DNA of 64,000 nucleotides from Clostridia bacterium. Lineage in GTDB: Bacteria > Bacillota > Clostridia > Oscillospirales > CAG-272. This document shows positions 3,974-39,771 of this stretch, piece by piece. The stretch covers positions 67,485 to 131,484 of the forward strand of contig JAFYMF010000057.1 of NCBI GenBank assembly GCA_017556745.1. The letters are read 5' to 3'. Every line of letters starts with the position of its first letter. Position 1 is the stretch's first letter. Made by a program: the position numbers and the translations under genes. Below the pieces are notes generated by a model. It was not told where the DNA came from. It saw only the letters and a list, made by a program, of their open reading frames with translations, and ran no database searches.

Positions 3974-4732
3974 TTAGATTCTCACATTTATATTTTCTTG
4001 TCTGAGATATTCCTTAAGATCAGGAATTTCAAGCTCACGGTAGTGAAACAGTGTAGCCGCAAGAGCCGCAGATGCTTCACTCTTCGTAAAGATATCTTTG
4101 AAATGTTCTTTACTTCCTCCGCCGCCCGACGCAATAACCGGAATATTTAAGAGTGATGCAACCTTTGATGTTATCTCTATATCAAATCCGCTCTTTGTGC
4201 CGTCTGTATCCATAGAGGTAAGAAGTATTTCTCCTGCACCAAGCTCCTCTGCCTCGCAGGCCCACTCGATCACGTCAATACCGGTATCGATACGCCCACC
4301 GTTGATATATACGGAAAAACCTCCGTCACCGCGTCTCTTTGCATCAATAGCGAGAACAACGCACTGACTGCCAAATTTATCTGCCGCCTCGGAAATAAGA
4401 TACTTATTCTTTACCGCCGCAGAGTTCACACTTACCTTGTCTGCTCCTGCTCTGAGTATTTTCTTAAAATCATCGATGGTTCTTATTCCTCCACCGACAG
4501 TGAGGGGCATAAATACCTCACGCGAAGTTCTTTCAACAACGTCGACTATAGTGTCTCTATTTTCATGGGATGCGGTAATATCAAGAAATACAAGTTCATC
4601 AGCACCTTTTGTGTTATAAAGCTTTGCTATCTCGATAGGATCTCCCGCATCTCTCAAATTTACAAAATTTGTTCCTTTTACTACCCTTCCGTCTTTTACG
4701 TCAAGGCAAGGAATGATTCTCTTGGTTATCAT
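3974..4732 (-). CDS. hisF: Imidazole glycerol phosphate synthase, cyclase subunit
   Basis: TIM-barrel subunit that uses ammonia delivered by HisH to turn PRFAR into imidazole glycerol phosphate and AICAR. At 252 residues it is the usual size. Catalytic Asp residues lie in the N-terminal [16 protein letters not shown] and in [15 protein letters not shown] near residue 175. Phosphate-binding loops VGGGIR and IASGGGGS are intact. It follows hisA by 18 bases in the his operon, and its glutaminase partner HisH is encoded two genes upstream. Confidence 0.97.
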
Positions 4733-4750: not shown

Positions 4751-5467
4751 TTATTCTGCGGCAACTCGTATAGCCTCTTTAAGATCAAGAGTACCGCTGT
4801 ATATGGATTTTCCGCAGATAGCGGCGTATACCCCCATCTTGGTAAGTCTTTCAATGTGAGCTATATCTCTTATACCGCCACTGGCAGTTATCTTTACATT
4901 AACGGTTTCTTTAAGAATTCCAAGCTGTTCGAAATTAGGCTCTGTAAGAGTACCGTCCTTATCAATATCAGTAAAAATAATGTTATCAACTCCGATATCT
5001 TCCATTACCTTAGCAAAATCGGTGTATTTTACTTCAGAACTGTTAGTCCAGCCGTCAACACATACAAAGCCATTCTTTGCATCAATTCCGACAGCAATCT
5101 TGTTTCCGTATTTTTTTACCGCCGCGCGAACAAAATCAGGATCACGAAGTGCTGAAGTACCAAGGATTATGCGGCTGATACCGCCATCTATATATCTGTC
5201 AACAGTATCCATATTACGAATACCGCCACCTATCTCAACCGGAACATTTACAGTTTTTGCTATCTTTGAAATAAGATCAAGATTCTCAGGCTCGCCCGAT
5301 TTTGCTCCGTTAAGATCTACTGTATGGATCATCTCTGCTCCGTTTGATTCAAAGTTGAGAGCAGTTTTTACTGCGTCCTCAGCAACTCTCGATGCGCTTC
5401 CGTACTCACCCTTTACAAGTCGGACACACTGACCGCCGAGAATATCTATTGCAGGTAAAATAAGCAT
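4751..5467 (-). CDS. hisA: 1-(5-phosphoribosyl)-5-[(5-phosphoribosylamino)methylideneamino]imidazole-4-carboxamide isomerase
   Basis: Amadori isomerase converting ProFAR to PRFAR. It is a 238-residue TIM barrel related to HisF. The N-terminal catalytic Asp lies in LPAIDILGGQCVRLVKGEYG, the second in FTDIDKDGTLTEPN near residue 168, and the phosphate loops are VEIGGGIR and ITASGGIRD. The gene lies between hisH and hisF with spacings of 18 bases on each side. Nothing suggests the dual HisA/TrpF enzyme PriA, which is mainly an actinobacterial solution. Confidence 0.96.
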   Translation of the reverse strand: MLILPAIDILGGQCVRLVKGEYGSASRVAEDAVKTALNFESNGAEMIHTVDLNGAKSGEPENLDLISKIAKTVNVPVEIGGGIRNMDTVDRYIDGGISRIILGTSALRDPDFVRAAVKKYGNKIAVGIDAKNGFVCVDGWTNSSEVKYTDFAKVMEDIGVDNIIFTDIDKDGTLTEPNFEQLGILKETVNVKITASGGIRDIAHIERLTKMGVYAAICGKSIYSGTLDLKEAIRVAAE

Positions 5468-34074: not shown

Positions 34075-35172
34075 ATGAAGTATACCGTCGATAAAAATAA
34101 AAACGAGTCCTCATACATACAGCTGTACCGACAAATGAAAAACGATATTGTTAAAGGTAATTACAGATACGGAGCACGTTTACCGTCAAAACGTCTTATC
34201 TCTGAAGAAACAGGTGTAAGCGTCATTACAGTTGAGCATGCATACGCCATATTATGTGACGAGGGATATGCCGAGGCAAAACCGCGGCGCGGTTATTTTG
34301 CCGCTTACAGAGAAAAGGATTTTTTATCAGTAGGTGGCATTGGTTCATATAGAAAGATAAAAACAAGCACACACCTTAACACTGAAAACACCTTTCCCTT
34401 CTCCGTTCTTGCAAAAACAATGAGGAGGATCATAAGCGATCAAAGAGAAAACATAATGGTCAAGTCCCCTAACAAAGGCTGTAATGAGCTAAGAGAGGCC
34501 ATCAGCATGTATCTTGCACGTTCAAACGGTATGACGGTCACTCCGGACCAGATAATAATAGGCTCCGGTGCTGAATATCTTTATACATTGACAGTACAGC
34601 TTTTGGGACGTAAAAATATATTTGGAACGGAAGATCCCTGCTACGACAAGATCAATCGTGTGTATGAATCCTGTGGAGTGCAGTGCCGTCGGCTGAGAAT
34701 GGGCAGAGACGGAATAATAACAGATGATCTGAAAAACACTGATGCTACCATTCTTCACGTTACACCGTTTAACAGCTTTCCCAGTAATGTAACTGCAACA
34801 GCTTCAAAGAAAAAAGAATATTTGTTATGGGCAAAAGAAAGACAAGGATATATCGTAGAAGACAATTTCGACTCTGAATTAACCGTGTCAAGTAAGGCGG
34901 AAGATACACTTTTTTCACTTGATTCCAACGGACATGTCATTTACGTAAACACCTTTTCAAAGACACTGGCACCCTCTATGCGTGTAGGATATATGGTATT
35001 ACCACAGAAACTGCTACCCATTTTTGATGAGAAAATAGGCTTTTTCTCATGTACCGTTCCTGTGTTCGAACAATATACTCTTGCAGAACTGATAAATAGC
35101 GGCGACTTCGAGAGGCATATCAACAGAGTCCGTAGAGAAAGACGAAAGCTGAAAATCAAAAGCGACAGTTAA
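34075..35172 (+). CDS. MocR/PdxR-type regulator, C-terminally truncated
   Basis: GntR-type winged helix (residues about 8-80: IQLYRQMKNDIVKGNYRYGARLPSKRLISEETGVSVITVEHAYAIL) fused to a class I aminotransferase-like domain with the PLP-lysine motif NTFSKTLAPSMRVGYM near residue 303 and NPxG-like HVTPFNSFP. MocR proteins are usually about 460-490 residues; this one ends at 365, in the helix FERHINRVRRERRKLKIK, lacking the C-terminal small domain. Only about 90 bases separate it from pdxK, so the missing part is deleted, not frameshifted. It may be a decaying gene or a shortened but working repressor. Neighbouring pdxK suggests PLP sensing. Confidence 0.8.
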   Translation: MKYTVDKNKNESSYIQLYRQMKNDIVKGNYRYGARLPSKRLISEETGVSVITVEHAYAILCDEGYAEAKPRRGYFAAYREKDFLSVGGIGSYRKIKTSTHLNTENTFPFSVLAKTMRRIISDQRENIMVKSPNKGCNELREAISMYLARSNGMTVTPDQIIIGSGAEYLYTLTVQLLGRKNIFGTEDPCYDKINRVYESCGVQCRRLRMGRDGIITDDLKNTDATILHVTPFNSFPSNVTATASKKKEYLLWAKERQGYIVEDNFDSELTVSSKAEDTLFSLDSNGHVIYVNTFSKTLAPSMRVGYMVLPQKLLPIFDEKIGFFSCTVPVFEQYTLAELINSGDFERHINRVRRERRKLKIKSDS

Positions 35173-35200
35173 TCTGGTTATATAAAACTATTTTATTTTG

Positions 35201-35233
35201 GATATTTACACATTACCAATACCGTGATATTAT
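35201..35233 (+). promoter_or_regulatory. pdxK promoter with MocR-like operator
   Basis: TTTACA (35205-35210) and TATTAT (35228-35233) with a 17-base spacer. GATATT-N11-AATACC (35201-35223) covers the -35 and closely resembles the repeat in the mocR promoter (shared TATTTACA and CAATACC). Confidence 0.6.
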
Positions 35234-35264
35234 TTAGAAAAATAAGTTACTTATAGGAGTATAT

Positions 35265-36098
35265 ATGTCATACGGAAGAGTGCTCACAATACAAGATATT
35301 TCCTGCTTCGGTCAGTGTTCTCTGACTGTTGCTCTCCCTATTCTTTCTGCCTGCGGACATGAGACCTGCGTTCTCCCCTCTGCAGTCCTCTCAACACACA
35401 CCGGCGGTTTCACAGGTTTTACTTTCAGAGATCTCACCGAGGATATGCCCTCCATCAAGGATCACTGGATCAAAGAAAAAATTTCTTTTGATGCTATTTA
35501 TACAGGATATCTCGGCAGCACACGTCAGATAGACTATGTAAAGGATATTTTTGCTGCTTTTGATAAAGAAGGATGCCTCAAGGTAGTCGATCCCGCTATG
35601 GCAGATAACGGAAAGCTGTACTACGGATTTGACGATAAATTTGTTGCAGAGATGAAAACACTCTGCGGTAAAGCGGATTATCTTGTTCCCAATATTACAG
35701 AGTCCTGCTTCCTCACAGATACCGAGTTTAAGACAGAATACGATGAAGCGTACATAAAGGAACTTCTCGTAAAACTTGCCGCACTCGGATGCAAGAACGT
35801 TATTCTCACAGGCGTTTCTTATGCCCCCGGTACTACCGGTGCAGTAGTATATGAAAACGGTGAGTACTATTACTACAAGCATGACAAGATAGCAAACGGT
35901 TGCCACGGTACAGGTGATATTTACGCATCCGCTTTCGTCGGCTCACTCCTTCACGGTAAAACTGCTTACGACAGCGCAAAGATCGCCGCTGATTACGTTC
36001 TTGCCTGCATCAACGAGACAATTAAGGACGAGACTCATTGGTACGGTGCAAAATTTGAGCCTGTCCTCGGTAAGCTTATCGAGTCTCTTAAGCAATAA
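35265..36098 (+). CDS. Pyridoxamine/pyridoxal kinase (PdxK/PdxY type)
   Basis: Ribokinase-fold kinase that phosphorylates B6 vitamers to feed PLP salvage. The 277-residue protein starts RVLTIQDISCFGQCSLTVALPILSACGHETCVLPSAVLSTHT, which is the PdxK/PdxY N-terminal signature, and has VVDPAMADNGKLY near residue 108, VPNITESCFLT near 144 and the catalytic NGCHGTGDIYASAFVG near 212. It follows a truncated MocR gene and has its own promoter and terminator. Confidence 0.93.
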   Translation: MSYGRVLTIQDISCFGQCSLTVALPILSACGHETCVLPSAVLSTHTGGFTGFTFRDLTEDMPSIKDHWIKEKISFDAIYTGYLGSTRQIDYVKDIFAAFDKEGCLKVVDPAMADNGKLYYGFDDKFVAEMKTLCGKADYLVPNITESCFLTDTEFKTEYDEAYIKELLVKLAALGCKNVILTGVSYAPGTTGAVVYENGEYYYYKHDKIANGCHGTGDIYASAFVGSLLHGKTAYDSAKIAADYVLACINETIKDETHWYGAKFEPVLGKLIESLKQ

Positions 36099-36149
36099 AT
36101 CGAAAACTTTTAAAAATATCGTAAATATTTTTAAATATTATAATACTTT

Positions 36150-36180
36150 AGCCGGTTATCGAAAGGTAGCCGGCTTTTTG
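36150..36180 (+). terminator. Terminator of pdxK
   Basis: AGCCGG (36150-36155) pairs with CCGGCT (36170-36175) around a 14-base loop, followed by TTTTTG. Confidence 0.75.
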
Positions 36181-36225
36181 TGTTGATTATAAACCAATGG
36201 TTGACAGAAGCTTTTCATATACCGA

Positions 36226-36254
36226 TTGACAGTAAACAGAGAATGTGATACACT
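36226..36254 (+). promoter_or_regulatory. Consensus promoter of the attenuator-ATPase locus
   Basis: TTGACA (36226-36231) and TACACT (36249-36254) with a 17-base spacer. A second TTGACA occurs 25 bases upstream (36201-36206) without its own -10. The transcript would start near 36261, giving a leader of about 330 bases before the ATPase gene. Confidence 0.75.
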
Positions 36255-36308
36255 ATAAATGCAATTAAATTATAAATACTTTAAGCTTATCTAAAGGAGG
36301 CGATTATT

Positions 36309-36362
36309 ATGAAAATCACTTATATTTATCGGATGTCATACCTATCGCCTGCGATATGCTGA
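36309..36362 (+). CDS. Leader peptide of an attenuator (17 residues)
   Basis: Small ORF reading MKITYIYRMSYLSPAIC, preceded by an excellent ribosome site (AAAGGAGG) 9 bases before the ATG. Its codons 7-10 contain the left arm of an antiterminator helix, and the first terminator begins 27 bases after its stop codon. This is the layout of ribosome-controlled attenuators. Four Tyr/Ile-rich codons open the peptide and a Pro-Ala-Ile-Cys end precedes the stop; no amino acid is repeated enough to suggest classical amino-acid attenuation, so a drug- or stall-sensing role is more likely. Translation itself has not been shown. Confidence 0.7.
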   Translation: MKITYIYRMSYLSPAIC

Positions 36363-36418
36363 ACGCAAGGTTTATATAGTTTTTGATGCACATCCGGTGA
36401 CGGGTGTGTTTTTGTTTG
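36326..36418 (+). promoter_or_regulatory. Antiterminator / intrinsic terminator 1 switch
   Basis: Terminator 1: CACATCCG (36389-36396), loop GTGA (a GNRA tetraloop), CGGGTGTG (36401-36408), then TTTTTGTTTG. Competing antiterminator: 36326-36336 (within leader codons 6-10) pairs with 36390-36400 in 11 consecutive pairs, two of them G-U, removing the whole left arm and loop of the terminator. A small internal hairpin TATCG/CGATA (36343-36347 with 36352-36356) lies between. The two folds exclude each other, so translation of the leader decides which forms. Confidence 0.75.
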
Positions 36419-36455
36419 TCTGAAATATCTTTCTTTGGCAAACGTATACCTTTAT

Positions 36456-36485
36456 GTACCCGTAGGGGTGCTTTTTGTTTTTCGT
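36456..36485 (+). terminator. Intrinsic terminator 2 of the attenuator
   Basis: GTACCC (36456-36461), loop GTAG, GGGTGC (36466-36471), then TTTTTGTTTTT. Its left arm segment ACCCGT (36458-36463) is complementary to ACGGGT (36400-36405), the right arm of terminator 1. When the antiterminator frees that right arm it can disable terminator 2 as well. Confidence 0.72.
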
Positions 36486-36500
36486 GGAAAGCCCTCGATT

Positions 36501-36614
36501 ATGAGTCAAACGGAAAATTCAGCAAAACCGAAAGGAGAATTTTTTATTATGACTTCTATTAGCACACTTTTGAAAAATAAAATAGGAGATGCCTATGAAA
36601 AGATTAAAAAGTAA
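36501..36614 (+). CDS. Small ORF overlapping the start of the ATPase gene
   Basis: Reading from ATG 36501 gives 37 residues; an in-frame ATG at 36549 gives 21 residues and has the better ribosome site (AAAGGAG, 36531-36537). The peptide is Lys-rich and ends EKIKK. Its 3' end overlaps the first codons of the ATPase gene in another frame, so its translation could couple to, or open, the ATPase start. It may be a second leader or a real small protein. Confidence 0.45.
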   Translation: MSQTENSAKPKGEFFIMTSISTLLKNKIGDAYEKIKK

Positions 36615-38409
36615 GATATTATCTATGGAGCCTAACACAACCACTTACAAGGCGATATATGAAGGTAGTATGACTATAGTTGATCCTGCACATCCTTCAG
36701 TAAAACCGTATACAGATTACAGTCCAACCTATTACAACGATAACGTTGGATTTGAAATAACCACGACACACAAGTTAGCGCAAGATAAGCCAACAGTAGT
36801 GATCAGTATTCCTTGTGAAGCACTTGGAATCGATATTCCCGACAAATCTACCGAGAGCGCAGAAGCGGATTTTTGCCTTCGTGCTTTCAAAAAATATATC
36901 GATGAGCTAAACGCAGAATTATATAATCGAAGTCGTCCCGATAACGAAAACGGCAAGTATTATTTGTGTGTACCCGGCGGAGAAATAATAAAAAGGAACG
37001 CGGTATATTTTGCGCTGTGTCCGCAGAAAGACTATACAAACGGTTCGGGATCAACGGTGTATCTTTTGAACGATGATAAACCTCGTCCGCCACTGATGTG
37101 CCTATGTATCAGAATCCAAGTTCAGTTTCCCCTAAAAAAACTTCGCAAAACCCTTCAAATGATGTGCCGCGATCTTCCTGATGCGGTTGATCGCTTCATT
37201 TTGAATTTCGATATCGATAGACTGAAGAAAGCAACCGAACTTGCAAAAAAGCAATCCTCCATCCGCGCGTGGCTAAAGAACAGCAACTATTGTGCTTTTG
37301 TTGCCAACGGAAGTATTCTTCCGCGCGCAAAAGGAACAGACTTACCAATGCTTGATGCAATTCCGTTTAGGTCTACACCCGATGACGAGATTGAAATTTT
37401 TGGTGTACGCGGTATGGGGATAAAAAAGGGTGTTACCGTTATTACGGGCGGTGGCTATTCAGGAAAATCCACTCTGCTTGACACCATATCCGCAGGAATC
37501 TATGACCACGTACTTGGTGACGGACGCGAGCTTTGCATAACAGACGAAAGTGCCGTTACAATTTCTGCAGAGGACGGAAGAAGTGTAAAACACGTCAATA
37601 TTTCACCGTTTATAAAGTGGTTACCGGGTGGTAACACAAGCGATTTCTCAACCGATCACGCATCGGGATCGACCTCACAAGCAGCAAATATTATGGAAGC
37701 GGTTGATTCAGGTACAAGGTTGTTACTCATTGACGAAGACAGGAGTGCCACTAACTTTATGATTCGTGACCGCATGATGAAGGAGTTGATAGAAAAAGAA
37801 CCGATCACCCCATTTACCGACCGAGCCAACGAGCTTCACAAAACTCGTGATGTTTCTACTATTCTCGTTATCGGTGGTAGCGGTGAGTATCTTTCGGTTG
37901 CCGACAAAATCTATATGATGGAGGATTATCTTATTCACGACGTAACAGAAAAATCCAAAAACATCTGTAATTCATATAACATGACCGCAGAACTGCCCAC
38001 ACCTGCAAACTGGGAACAGATCAGGACCCTTTACTCTGACCGTTTTTCTTCTTATCCCGAAGGAAGCGGTACAGAAAAACTTGAAGTTTCTGATATGGGT
38101 TTTGTCATAATCGGTGATGAAAAGATAGATGTACGCGGACTTCACGATATTGTTTCTTTCCACCAACTTGATACTCTTGGTTTTATGTTACGCTATTTGG
38201 AAATATCCAACAACGACAGAAAGATCGACATTGAAAAGAAGATCAATGATTTGTATGCACGGATATACGAGGAAGGAATTGACTTCCTCTATTCTTCCTT
38301 CTTTACGACCTGTGAGAGATTTCTCGACCTCCCTCGCAAGCAGGAGTTGACAGCACTTATCAACCGTATGCGAAAAATAAACATGGTAAAGGGTGATGAA
38401 ATAAAATAA
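36595..38409 (+). CDS. ABC-class predicted ATPase (PF09818 family)
   Basis: A 604-residue cytoplasmic protein with no membrane segments. A long N-terminal domain (about 1-240) precedes an ABC-type nucleotide-binding core: Walker A GGGYSGKSTLL near residue 285, a degenerate signature DHASGSTSQAANIM near 357, Walker B RLLLIDEDRSATNFM near 373, and a switch region TILVIGGSGEYLSVADKIYMM near 420. This matches the family known only as predicted ATPase of the ABC class; its role is unknown. ATG at 36595 follows GGAG by six bases; an ATG at 36589 is also in frame. Strong attenuator control upstream hints at a translation-stress link. The stop overlaps the start of a small XRE gene (TAATG). Confidence 0.85.
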   Translation: MKRLKSKILSMEPNTTTYKAIYEGSMTIVDPAHPSVKPYTDYSPTYYNDNVGFEITTTHKLAQDKPTVVISIPCEALGIDIPDKSTESAEADFCLRAFKKYIDELNAELYNRSRPDNENGKYYLCVPGGEIIKRNAVYFALCPQKDYTNGSGSTVYLLNDDKPRPPLMCLCIRIQVQFPLKKLRKTLQMMCRDLPDAVDRFILNFDIDRLKKATELAKKQSSIRAWLKNSNYCAFVANGSILPRAKGTDLPMLDAIPFRSTPDDEIEIFGVRGMGIKKGVTVITGGGYSGKSTLLDTISAGIYDHVLGDGRELCITDESAVTISAEDGRSVKHVNISPFIKWLPGGNTSDFSTDHASGSTSQAANIMEAVDSGTRLLLIDEDRSATNFMIRDRMMKELIEKEPITPFTDRANELHKTRDVSTILVIGGSGEYLSVADKIYMMEDYLIHDVTEKSKNICNSYNMTAELPTPANWEQIRTLYSDRFSSYPEGSGTEKLEVSDMGFVIIGDEKIDVRGLHDIVSFHQLDTLGFMLRYLEISNNDRKIDIEKKINDLYARIYEEGIDFLYSSFFTTCERFLDLPRKQELTALINRMRKINMVKGDEIK

Positions 38410-38651
38410 TGACAAAAATCTATTACATAACCATCGCTGATAAAATAAAAGTATATCGAAGCAAACACAATGTAACCCAACGAAGCTTTGCTAAGTTACT
38501 CGGCGTTTCAGCGCAAGCAATACACAAGTGGGAAAAACAACTGTGTTATCCGGACATTACTCTCCTACCGCATCTTGCCAAAATATTAGAGTGTAATGTA
38601 AATGATTTCTTTAATGAATACCAAATGATAAAAACTAATAAGGAGCTATAA
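38409..38651 (+). CDS. Small XRE-family HTH protein
   Basis: An 80-residue protein that is almost only an XRE helix-turn-helix: IADKIKVYRSKHNVTQRSFAKLLGVSAQAIHKWEKQLCYPDITLLPHLAKILECNVNDFF. It is translationally coupled to the ABC-class ATPase by a one-base stop/start overlap. It could repress the locus or act with the ATPase; no operator is obvious apart from the repeated TTGACA boxes upstream. Confidence 0.82.
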   Translation: MTKIYYITIADKIKVYRSKHNVTQRSFAKLLGVSAQAIHKWEKQLCYPDITLLPHLAKILECNVNDFFNEYQMIKTNKEL

Positions 38652-38743
38652 CGCATTTTCGTTAAGTATAATTTATAAATCAATACACAATATCAGTCAC
38701 ACAAAATCAGACTTGCAATTCAAAAATATTGTCTTTAAAAACA

Positions 38744-38773
38744 ATAAACGTCCTGCAAAAGCAGGGCGTTTAT
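38744..38773 (-). terminator. Bidirectional terminator between XRE and S1-domain genes
   Basis: A 13-bp stem (38744-38756 with 38761-38773, one G-T pair) and AAAA loop. The minus strand continues TGTTTTTAAAG, the plus strand CGTTTATTACG, so it serves the S1-domain gene best. From 38652 to this hairpin I see nothing else. Confidence 0.75.
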
Positions 38774-38826
38774 CGTTTATTACGAATCGTTTTAATGCAA
38801 TATATCCATCGGGTGATACATCTTGT

Positions 38827-39771
38827 TTAGGAAAACACCGTTTCTATTACCTTATCACAGTTATACGGAGAATATCGCCAATAGTCGATGTGGTTAACTG
38901 CTTCTGTATCAACAAAATACTTTGCTTCAAATGGGATCTTCTCCCCTTTGTAGGAATCTATAAGCACAAGCTTGATCTTCATTTTCTCCGGAATGATACT
39001 CTTTATGTAAGCGGCCGTTATCTGACCCACCGCTATGTCATCTCTCAGTTCCGCAAGACCCGCAAGATTTGGTGCTATCTCAACAAAAACTCCGTAACTT
39101 TCAACGCTTCTCACCACACCCGAGACAGTCTGACCTACTTTAAATCTTGACGCATTTTCTTCCCACGTGCCGAGAAGCTCTCTATGTGTAACGTATATTC
39201 TTCCGCTGTCGCGATCGATACTCTTTATTATGACCGGTATACGCATCCCTACATACAATCTGTCTCTCGGGTGCGATATTCTGGAAACAGAAATACAATC
39301 TATAGAAAGGAGAGAGGTTATACCACATCCGATATCAACAAATGCACCAAACTGTTCAAGATGCGTTACCTTTGCTTCTATTATATCTCCGGGCATGAGT
39401 CCCATCAGATACCTCTCCATGCATTCCTTCTGTGCGGCACGGCGAGAAAGTATTGGATAGCTTTTACCTGATTGATCTTTTTCAAAACCGATAACCTTAA
39501 ACGCAACCGCACGCCCTACGCGGGTTATAACCGCTATATCCTTAACAGTCTCCCCCATAGGTATATAAGCTACCTCTTCACGTGGCATAATACCGTATCT
39601 GCCACCGAGATTAACAGACAGATTCATTCCCGGTTCACATAAAGTGGCTATACCCTCAAGTATTTTCCCCTCATTCATGGCTGAGCTAAGTCCCCCCATG
39701 GATGAAAGATAAAACTTGTTTTCGGGTGAAGAAAGGGTACTTCCCTCAGGTCTATATATATTTCCTTCCAT
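38827..39771 (-). CDS. S1 RNA-binding domain protein (S1-like)
   Basis: A 314-residue protein with two clear S1 OB-fold repeats, at about 125-200 (PGDIIEAKVTHLEQFGAFVDIGCGITSLL) and 209-272 (VGQTVSGVVRSVESYGVFVEIAPNLAGLAEL), and a divergent N-terminal one at about 45-115. Short S1-like proteins are common in Clostridia and are thought to bind mRNA or the ribosome. It lacks the 4-6 repeats of full ribosomal S1. A single-gene unit closed by the terminator at 38744. Confidence 0.85.
   Translation of the reverse strand: MEGNIYRPEGSTLSSPENKFYLSSMGGLSSAMNEGKILEGIATLCEPGMNLSVNLGGRYGIMPREEVAYIPMGETVKDIAVITRVGRAVAFKVIGFEKDQSGKSYPILSRRAAQKECMERYLMGLMPGDIIEAKVTHLEQFGAFVDIGCGITSLLSIDCISVSRISHPRDRLYVGMRIPVIIKSIDRDSGRIYVTHRELLGTWEENASRFKVGQTVSGVVRSVESYGVFVEIAPNLAGLAELRDDIAVGQITAAYIKSIIPEKMKIKLVLIDSYKGEKIPFEAKYFVDTEAVNHIDYWRYSPYNCDKVIETVFS

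Follow-up and report, generated by a model that had tools for sequence, protein, structure and literature searches.

The gene for an ABC-class ATPase of the PF09818 family in a Clostridia bacterium is preceded by a leader that probably senses ribosomes and attenuates transcription in the manner of vmlR and cplR. It would act through two terminators and respond to a ribosome at either the start or the stop codon of a short leader open reading frame (ORF). Attenuators of resistance genes that contain an upstream ORF (uORF) are well known, as in vmlR, cplR, lsaA, bmrCD, and toiL. The evidence, read from the sequences of the window and its relatives, consists of alternative helices, a complementarity that relays one terminator to the other, an ORF length that is independent of the reading frame, and the classes of genes found downstream.

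Parts of the leader

The window, as we call the whole stretch of DNA analyzed (64 kb), comprises positions 67485-131484 of its contig in a 2.43-Mb draft genome, and all of the features described here are on the plus strand. Direct reading located a promoter, TTGACA-N17-TACACT, at 36226-36254, and similar sequences were seen by eye upstream of the leaders of many relatives. It is followed by an extended Shine-Dalgarno sequence, AAAGGAGGCGAT (36293-36304), and by the leader ORF (36309-36362), the 17 codons of which translate to MKITYIYRMSYLSPAIC and the length of which is kept in the relatives. The 5′ arm of an antiterminator (36326-36336, with the core CGGATGT at 36330-36336), identified by direct reading and covariation, lies within this ORF and can form 11 consecutive pairs, two of them G.U, with a 3′ arm at 36390-36400. 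The latter is inside terminator 1 (T1, 36388-36418), which was found by a terminator scan and in the relatives and has a stem (36388-36409), a GTGA loop, and a U-run. Terminator 2 (T2, 36456-36485) has a stem at 36456-36471 and a U-run, and its left-arm segment ACCCGT (36458-36463) is the perfect complement of ACGGGT in T1 (36400-36405), a relay that was read by hand in the window and is also seen in relatives. The promoter, the 17-codon ORF, the two terminators, the 11-pair antiterminator, and the relay were all where the original prediction had placed them; the GNRA loop that it assigned to T1 holds for the window but is not conserved among the relatives.

That prediction overlooked a further helix, P1, in which the leader's own Shine-Dalgarno sequence and start codon pair with the 3′ part of the ORF. 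The 3′ arm of P1 (36336-36350) consists of ATCGCCT (36344-36350), which pairs with AGGCGAT of the Shine-Dalgarno sequence (36298-36304, the 5′ arm), and TCAT (36336-36339), which pairs with ATGA at the start codon (36309-36312). P1 is predicted to hold part of the antiterminator arm together with the ribosome site, as is required of an anti-antiterminator, and we infer from the geometry that it would be opened by a ribosome. The fold of 36261-36600 was 2.46 standard deviations better than those of 100 shuffles. Rfam gave no matches at the gathering score in the whole window; the one match over the leader that stood out, to RF02952 (dfrA-dnaX RNA), on the minus strand in AU-rich sequence, fell below the gathering score (32.2 bits, where 48.6 is required), with E 0.03-0.08 for a few hundred bases. 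It was not listed at E ≤ 0.5 over six loci (49 kb), a larger search that in itself raises E, and was taken as chance.

Conservation of the leader among relatives

A scan of one genome per species yielded 66 related loci in assemblies labeled Oscillospiraceae, Clostridia, and similar, mostly from the animal gut. A leader ORF with terminators recurs upstream of the PF09818 genes of gut Clostridia, where the original prediction had suggested looking for it, in 50 of these 66 loci, which together with the two PF09818 genes of the window's own genome (L001 and L002) make up a set of 52 leaders. The loci excluded were six cut by contig edges (L019, L021, L033, L049, L061, and L068), three in which the leader was not seen (L011, L043, and L045), three that seemingly lie directly behind another reading frame of the same kind (L054-L056), and four that by eye have a leader-like arrangement of diverged sequence (L036, L064, L065, and L067). 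Alignment A1 comprises 45 of the 52 leaders, with L002, L020, L023, L047, L053, L059, and L066 omitted. The relatives are not independent, so the shuffle counts given below are not probabilities. The recurring order is AAAGGAGGCGAT, start codon, CGGATGT core, ATCGCCT, stop codon, and a hairpin ACATCCG..CGGGTGT with a U-run, and in the leaders examined the start codon sits 14-17 nt from the beginning of the AAAGGAGGCGAT box.

In the 45 leaders of A1, 92.6% of the pairs in the antiterminator helix are standard, slid controls giving only 18-43%, and 5 of 9 pairs are changed on both sides, a number that was matched by 0 of 500 shuffles. Examples of two-sided changes are CAGGTGT/ACACCTG in L016 and CGGATAT/ATATCCG in L052. 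Covariation of this helix was a point on which the original prediction had staked itself, and there it has held. The T1 stem has 3 of 9 pairs changed on both sides in A1, and a U.G wobble in this stem, the U of which pairs with an A of the leader and the G with a C of T2, is kept in 40 of the 45 leaders. Of 51 leaders, 21 have a T1 stem stronger than the antiterminator duplex; in the other 30, the duplex equals or exceeds the stem in strength. The covariation of P1 is weak on A1, which was not fitted to the structure (3 of 11 pairs two-sided, a number reached by 30 of 500 shuffles). A model-fitted alignment, which favors the structure, comprises the 64 leaders (63 distinct) found with covariance model R1, some of which precede other genes. 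In it, two-sided changes affect 14 of the 20 pairs of P1 and T1 together (0 of 500 shuffles) and 9 of the 11 pairs of P1 alone. The pairing of P1 is kept with other letters, as in GGTGAC/GTCACC and GGTGATTGAC/GTCAATTACC; the P1 arms that were picked by rule are partly wrong, for example in L027, L030, L044, and L046.

The leader ORF is 16-19 codons long in 45 of the 52 leaders and 14-24 codons long in 49, whereas mononucleotide shuffling, repeated 1000 times, brought on average 11.6 and never more than 25 of the 52 into the latter range. ORFs of that length occur in the other two frames in 0 and 17 of the 52 leaders, the first of these being a weak control because the ATGA of the start closes the frame at once in 51 of 52; in L015 the leader ORF has only 4 codons. 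Relative to the ORF, the RNA core is in frame 0 in 25 leaders, in frame 1 in 16, and in frame 2 in 7, the rule having yielded no core in 4 of the 52, and the peptides are unrelated across frames (for example, MTSLYLSDVISIACGIC and MIKTYIIGCHIYRLQTL), near relatives having MMNTYIYRMSYVSPAVC-like peptides in common. The antiterminator arm starts 21 nt past the A of the start codon in the window and 18-22 nt past it in 44 of the 52 leaders, and the stop codon lies a median of 10 nt past the P1 3′ arm (51 leaders, with rule-picked arms and a wide spread from mis-picks). Because the length of the ORF is kept and its peptide and frame are not, the ORF is very probably translated, with selection acting on the end point of the ribosome and not on the leader peptide. 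Together with the covarying helices, the conserved length argues for a leader-ORF attenuator of the ribosome-sensing type, as had been claimed from the window alone.

Two terminators are known from erm(K). Among the leaders described here, a further hairpin was found close behind T1 in 42 of 51, using no letter filter, and was absent from 9. The relay antitermination read from the window is supported in the relatives by a shuffle test, in which the pairing of the T1 right arm with the T2 left arm outdid 95% or more of 200 shuffles in 37 of the 42 leaders; those below this mark were L035, L041, L058, L060, and L001, for which the script picked the wrong T2 arms and the relay was read by hand instead. 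This pairing was better than a control pairing of the T1 left arm with the T2 left arm in 42 of 42 leaders, and in 34 of 42 it equaled or surpassed the stem of T2 itself; a two-sided change, GGATG/CATCC in place of GGGTG/CACCC, was seen in L031 and L052. An earlier relay count of 35 of 35 was not used as a test, since its letter rule nearly guarantees pairing. By these comparisons, a relayed second terminator is present in about two thirds of the leaders. Because nine leaders have no second hairpin and the relay pairing does not exceed the 95% mark in four others, the relay is an addition to a one-terminator switch and not an essential part of it.

Ribosome position, competing explanations, and known systems

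The effect of a ribosome was evaluated by folding 47 of the 52 leaders as they stand when the left arm of T1 is just out, a ribosome footprint of 31 nt being placed on each codon in turn; the percentages per codon refer to the 46 leaders with an ORF of at least 14 codons, and the antiterminator was counted as favored when its probability exceeded 0.5. It was found that the antiterminator was favored by a ribosome at codon 1 in 98% of the leaders, at codon 2 in 91%, at codon 3 in 39%, at codons 4-13 in 0-2%, and at the last sense codon in 80%, an outcome that follows partly from the geometry put in. With no ribosome, it was favored in 43% of the 47 leaders, with a median probability of 0.22. 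For the leader of the window, a ribosome at codons 1-3 or 15-17 favors the antiterminator and one at codons 4-13 does not, and the probability is already 0.75 without a ribosome, so its P1 would be a weak off-state. When the whole T1 transcript was folded at equilibrium, T1 prevailed on average in all ribosome states (mean P(T1) 0.86-0.98), the values being lowest at codon 1 and the last sense codon, which is a slight tendency in the expected direction. Since T1 prevails at equilibrium, control would have to be kinetic.

In the model that we propose, stalling of a ribosome would be the trigger. With no ribosome on the leader, P1 would form and hold part of the antiterminator arm, T1 would form, and most transcripts would stop, with T2 catching leakage past T1. 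A ribosome at the leader start codon would cover the 5′ arm of P1 and end just short of the antiterminator arm. In vmlR, according to the available part of the report, the distance from the A of the uORF start codon to the 30S toeprint downstream is 16 nt, translation of the uORF is required, and arrest at initiation leads to read-through (PMC9226507). The arm of the leader described here begins beyond this reach of about +16, and therefore a stall at the start codon should block P1 and favor read-through. The freed antiterminator arm would pair with the left arm of T1 while T1 emerges from the polymerase, and the right arm of T1, set free, would pair with the left arm of T2, such that neither terminator works and transcription runs on into the ATPase gene. 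The stop codon lies shortly past the 3′ arm of P1, and a ribosome there should act as the start-codon ribosome does, whereas one moving through codons 4-13 would mask the antiterminator arm and keep the switch off. The likely inducers would be drugs that target the ribosome and halt it at initiation or early in elongation.

The original prediction took a narrower form, in which read-through results only from a ribosome that is far along the leader or has reached its stop, and every early stall, including one at the start codon, covers the arm and leads to termination. Its first half agrees with the position of the stop codon behind P1 (with the mis-picked arms noted above) and with the folding result for the last sense codon, and it is kept in the model preferred here. 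Its second half applies to codons 4-13 or thereabouts, where the ribosome covers the arm, but not to the start codon, because a ribosome there reaches about +16 and the arm starts at 18-22 nt; start-codon occupancy, moreover, gave the strongest antiterminator signal of all, and vmlR, in the portion of its description available, acts by initiation arrest (PMC9226507). We therefore consider the late-only form improbable, although it is the most probable of the alternatives. Control in trans, by the ATPase itself (as an MRB1590-like protein) or by another RNA-binding protein at P1 or at an element behind T2, with a minor role for the ORF, would account for the strong conservation of that element, whose pattern matches all lie behind PF09818 leaders, and would be in keeping with the RNA binding of MRB1590 (PMC4538832, from the part of the report available). 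However, the switch formed by P1 and T1 also precedes unrelated genes (ABC-F, exporters, and GNAT), and the conserved ORF length points to translation, so that we hold trans control to be unlikely.

Still less probable is classical amino-acid or nascent-peptide attenuation, in which specific codons of the leader are sensed: the peptides that near relatives have in common could be taken in its favor, but the RNA core occurs in all three frames of ORFs with unrelated peptides, and only the length is kept. A trp-type amino-acid attenuator was likewise rejected, as conserved control codons were not found and neither peptide nor frame is conserved. Finally, T1 and T2 are two good hairpins in a region (35000-39500) with 9 terminator-like sites where 3.9 were expected, as ordinary unregulated tandem terminators might be, yet the upstream kinase gene has a terminator-like site of its own at 36150-36175, a promoter and an ORF intervene, and the alternative helices covary; this explanation is very hard to sustain.

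The ribosome-sensing attenuator that we favor can be compared with known systems as far as the available parts of their reports describe them. The vmlR leader of B. subtilis contains the uORF MIN, an anti-antiterminator (SL-1), an antiterminator, and a terminator (SL-3) (PMC9226507). Both leaders have an intrinsic terminator upstream of an ATPase gene and a short ORF within an anti-antiterminator hairpin, a role that is predicted in the case of P1, and initiation arrest, which frees the antiterminator arm in vmlR, would do likewise here. They differ in that vmlR has a 3-codon ORF, a single leader terminator, a pause hairpin, and a uORF Shine-Dalgarno sequence described as single-stranded, whereas the window-type leader has an ORF of mostly 16-19 codons, a P1 helix that sequesters the uORF Shine-Dalgarno sequence, and, in most cases, a relay to a second terminator. 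The uORF sequence of vmlR matters somewhat, MDN and MDK being as good as MIN and MRK less so (PMC9226507); two of three foreign sequences thus equal the native one, a likeness to the peptide-independent leader described here.

The clostridial cplR (uORF MR[I/M]) and lsaA (MAGN) leaders are alike in uORF attenuation of ABC-F genes and in anti-Shine-Dalgarno elements, but have uORFs of 3-4 codons, and a relayed second terminator is not described in the available text (PMC10201436). The bmrBCD leader of B. subtilis, which is induced by 50S drugs, has a leader ORF, a terminator, an antiterminator, and a predicted anti-antiterminator before a pair of ABC-exporter genes, but differs in its 53-amino-acid leader and its one terminator, located inside the ORF, again in the part of the report at hand (PMC4191407). 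In toiL-topAI of E. coli, the available account has one uORF sensing several classes of ribosome-targeting drugs, with tetracycline stalling the ribosome at the start codon, but the system acts via translation and Rho and not via intrinsic terminators (PMC12121999).

Genes under the leader and the PF09818 ATPase

Covariance model R1 had a match at E ≤ 1e-3 in 49 of 295 family genomes, and in a draw from the class it matched 5 of 391 genomes, including the window's own and one (G467) that was judged chance. Covariance model R2 (E ≤ 5e-4) gave 81 matches in 68 of 395 family genomes; many loci of the named collection and of the other genomes are on identical contigs, so the two counts are not additive. 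The 81 matches lie before PF09818 genes, intact or cut by a contig or locus end (46), before broken PF09818 genes (3), before ABC exporters, mostly paired (8), before Lsa-type ABC-F genes (2), and before an MDYKGLxKYF-like protein (5, as the second frame in one case). A methyltransferase, an HTH-NUDIX-methyltransferase set, a GNAT, a lone HTH gene, and a membrane-like protein follow one match each, and of the remainder 7 are at contig edges, 4 were judged chance, and 1 is doubtful. One of the ABC-F proteins (L123) scored 762 bits, above the Lsa cut-off of 750, and the other (L109) 702.9 bits, which falls short of it and passes the cut-off for ABC-F in general (380). Among the exporters, matches are to ABC_tran or MsbA-like profiles, and no curated NCBIfam cut-off is reached, so that "drug exporter" is a putative label; GNAT, NUDIX, and methyltransferases were assigned by Pfam. 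The original suggestion that such a leader would be common to genes of the resistance type is supported by the Lsa-type ABC-F genes and the exporters, putative by profile, and the leader probably marks a drug-response regulon that also includes the methyltransferase and GNAT genes.

Of 196 genomes, 37 contain PF09818 genes, 44 in all: 28 with an R2 match upstream, 2 that come second in a tandem, 1 at the edge of a contig, and 13 with no R2 match. Eight of these 13 were looked at by eye, and in 6 a uORF is accompanied by a Shine-Dalgarno hairpin and a terminator, with diverged sequence, 5 of these 6 being recovered by a small R2 search; of the other two loci, one is cut and one shows no such leader. 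The same 196 genomes hold 22 Lsa-like genes, and 2 of 21 scanned loci carry the PF09818-type leader. By eye, 13 of 20 printed Lsa-like upstream regions have uORFs of 3-6 codons, and the very short uORFs (for example, MYNK, MRN, MSK, and MKL) of L149-L151, L153-L156, and L158-L163 resemble those of vmlR and lsaA.

Several leaders of related architecture were also seen. The second PF09818 gene of the window's genome (L002, contig G000:C14, 705-840) has a similar P1 and an unrelated T1 (beginning ACGGTATATC), a second leader type that occurs also in L186, L190, L191, L217, and L219. A leader before a GNAT gene (L187, 404-524) is alike in architecture with quite different pairing sequences (CTGATAAAATCA with TGATTTTATCAG). 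P1 is of an AAGGAGG/CCTCC type in L115, L116, L126, L131, and L178, before the MDYKGLxKYF-like protein, and in four of these five a CGGACG core faces CGTCC in T1; that protein had no Pfam match in the two cases scanned, and in several a kinase-like frame was seen behind it by eye. In L027, two tandem leaders (4399-4532 and 4860-4975), the first of them weak (30 bits), lie upstream of one PF09818 gene. In L143 and L144, the PF09818 gene behind the leader is broken. A search for a mobile origin found no leader match on plasmids and no viral relatives. PF09818 itself occurs in 11 plasmid records, all at less than 60% identity, and the one copy for which the surroundings were looked up, on a Staphylococcus epidermidis plasmid, has only 154 nt between the neighboring genes.

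The ATPase gene of the window (36595-38409) matches PF09818 with 336.4 bits (cut-off 23.2) and MRB1590_C (PF21117) with 49.9 bits (cut-off 27). By sequence, the closest proteins of solved structure are 5d6a (E 2e-73), a "Predicted ATPase of the ABC class", and the chains of Trypanosoma brucei MRB1590 (about E 1e-63), which share the PF09818 core and the MRB1590_C domain. MRB1590 differs in being a mitochondrial RNA-editing factor, for which RNA binding and ATPase activity are reported in the available part of the paper (PMC4538832). The stop of the ATPase gene is overlapped by a Cro/C1-type HTH gene (38409-38651; gene calls and profiles), and similar HTH genes were seen by eye beside such leaders in L113, L132, L143, L176, and L180, the ATPase gene being broken in L143.

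A second small ORF, MTSISTLLKNKIGDAYEKIKK (36549-36614), was read by hand and overlaps the ATPase start by 20 nt; it is partly conserved, being similar in near relatives, and translational coupling to the ATPase is possible. Behind T2 lies an element of the 5′ untranslated region conserved in the relatives, TTTTCGTGGRAA...ATAARG...AACGGAAAA (36479-36518). A first search pattern was too strict, with one match, the window's own, in 118 genomes; a second gave one match each in 8 of 20 chosen genomes, the window's own genome not matching, and all 9 matches, each in a different genome, are found behind PF09818 leaders. No convincing structure was obtained for the element with RNAalifold; a protein, which might be the ATPase, could bind there.

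A literature search, with most subscription journals outside its reach, found no bacterial function for PF09818 and no bacterial role for "ABC-class ATPase" combined with antibiotic and ribosome. The repeated placement of the ATPase under a probable ribosome-sensing switch makes it a candidate drug-response or ribosome-associated factor. A more specific idea is that the PF09818/MRB1590-like ATPase of gut Clostridia protects ribosomes or rescues translation when induced, as a class of factor separate from ABC-F, and that its leader, whatever peptide it encodes, reads the position of the ribosome in two windows (start and stop) and passes a single structural decision on to both terminators. This idea is tentative, and we regard it as a possibility that is rather more likely to fail than to hold.

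The design of the leader appears to set it apart from the attenuators compared, as far as the available parts of their reports go: the ORF length is kept in three frames, and a three-arm relay includes a conserved wobble in T1. Further candidates for resistance genes in gut Clostridia may be sought with the covariance model. A switch common to PF09818, Lsa-type ABC-F, and exporter genes would give PF09818 its first directly testable role, in the response to drug or ribosome stress.
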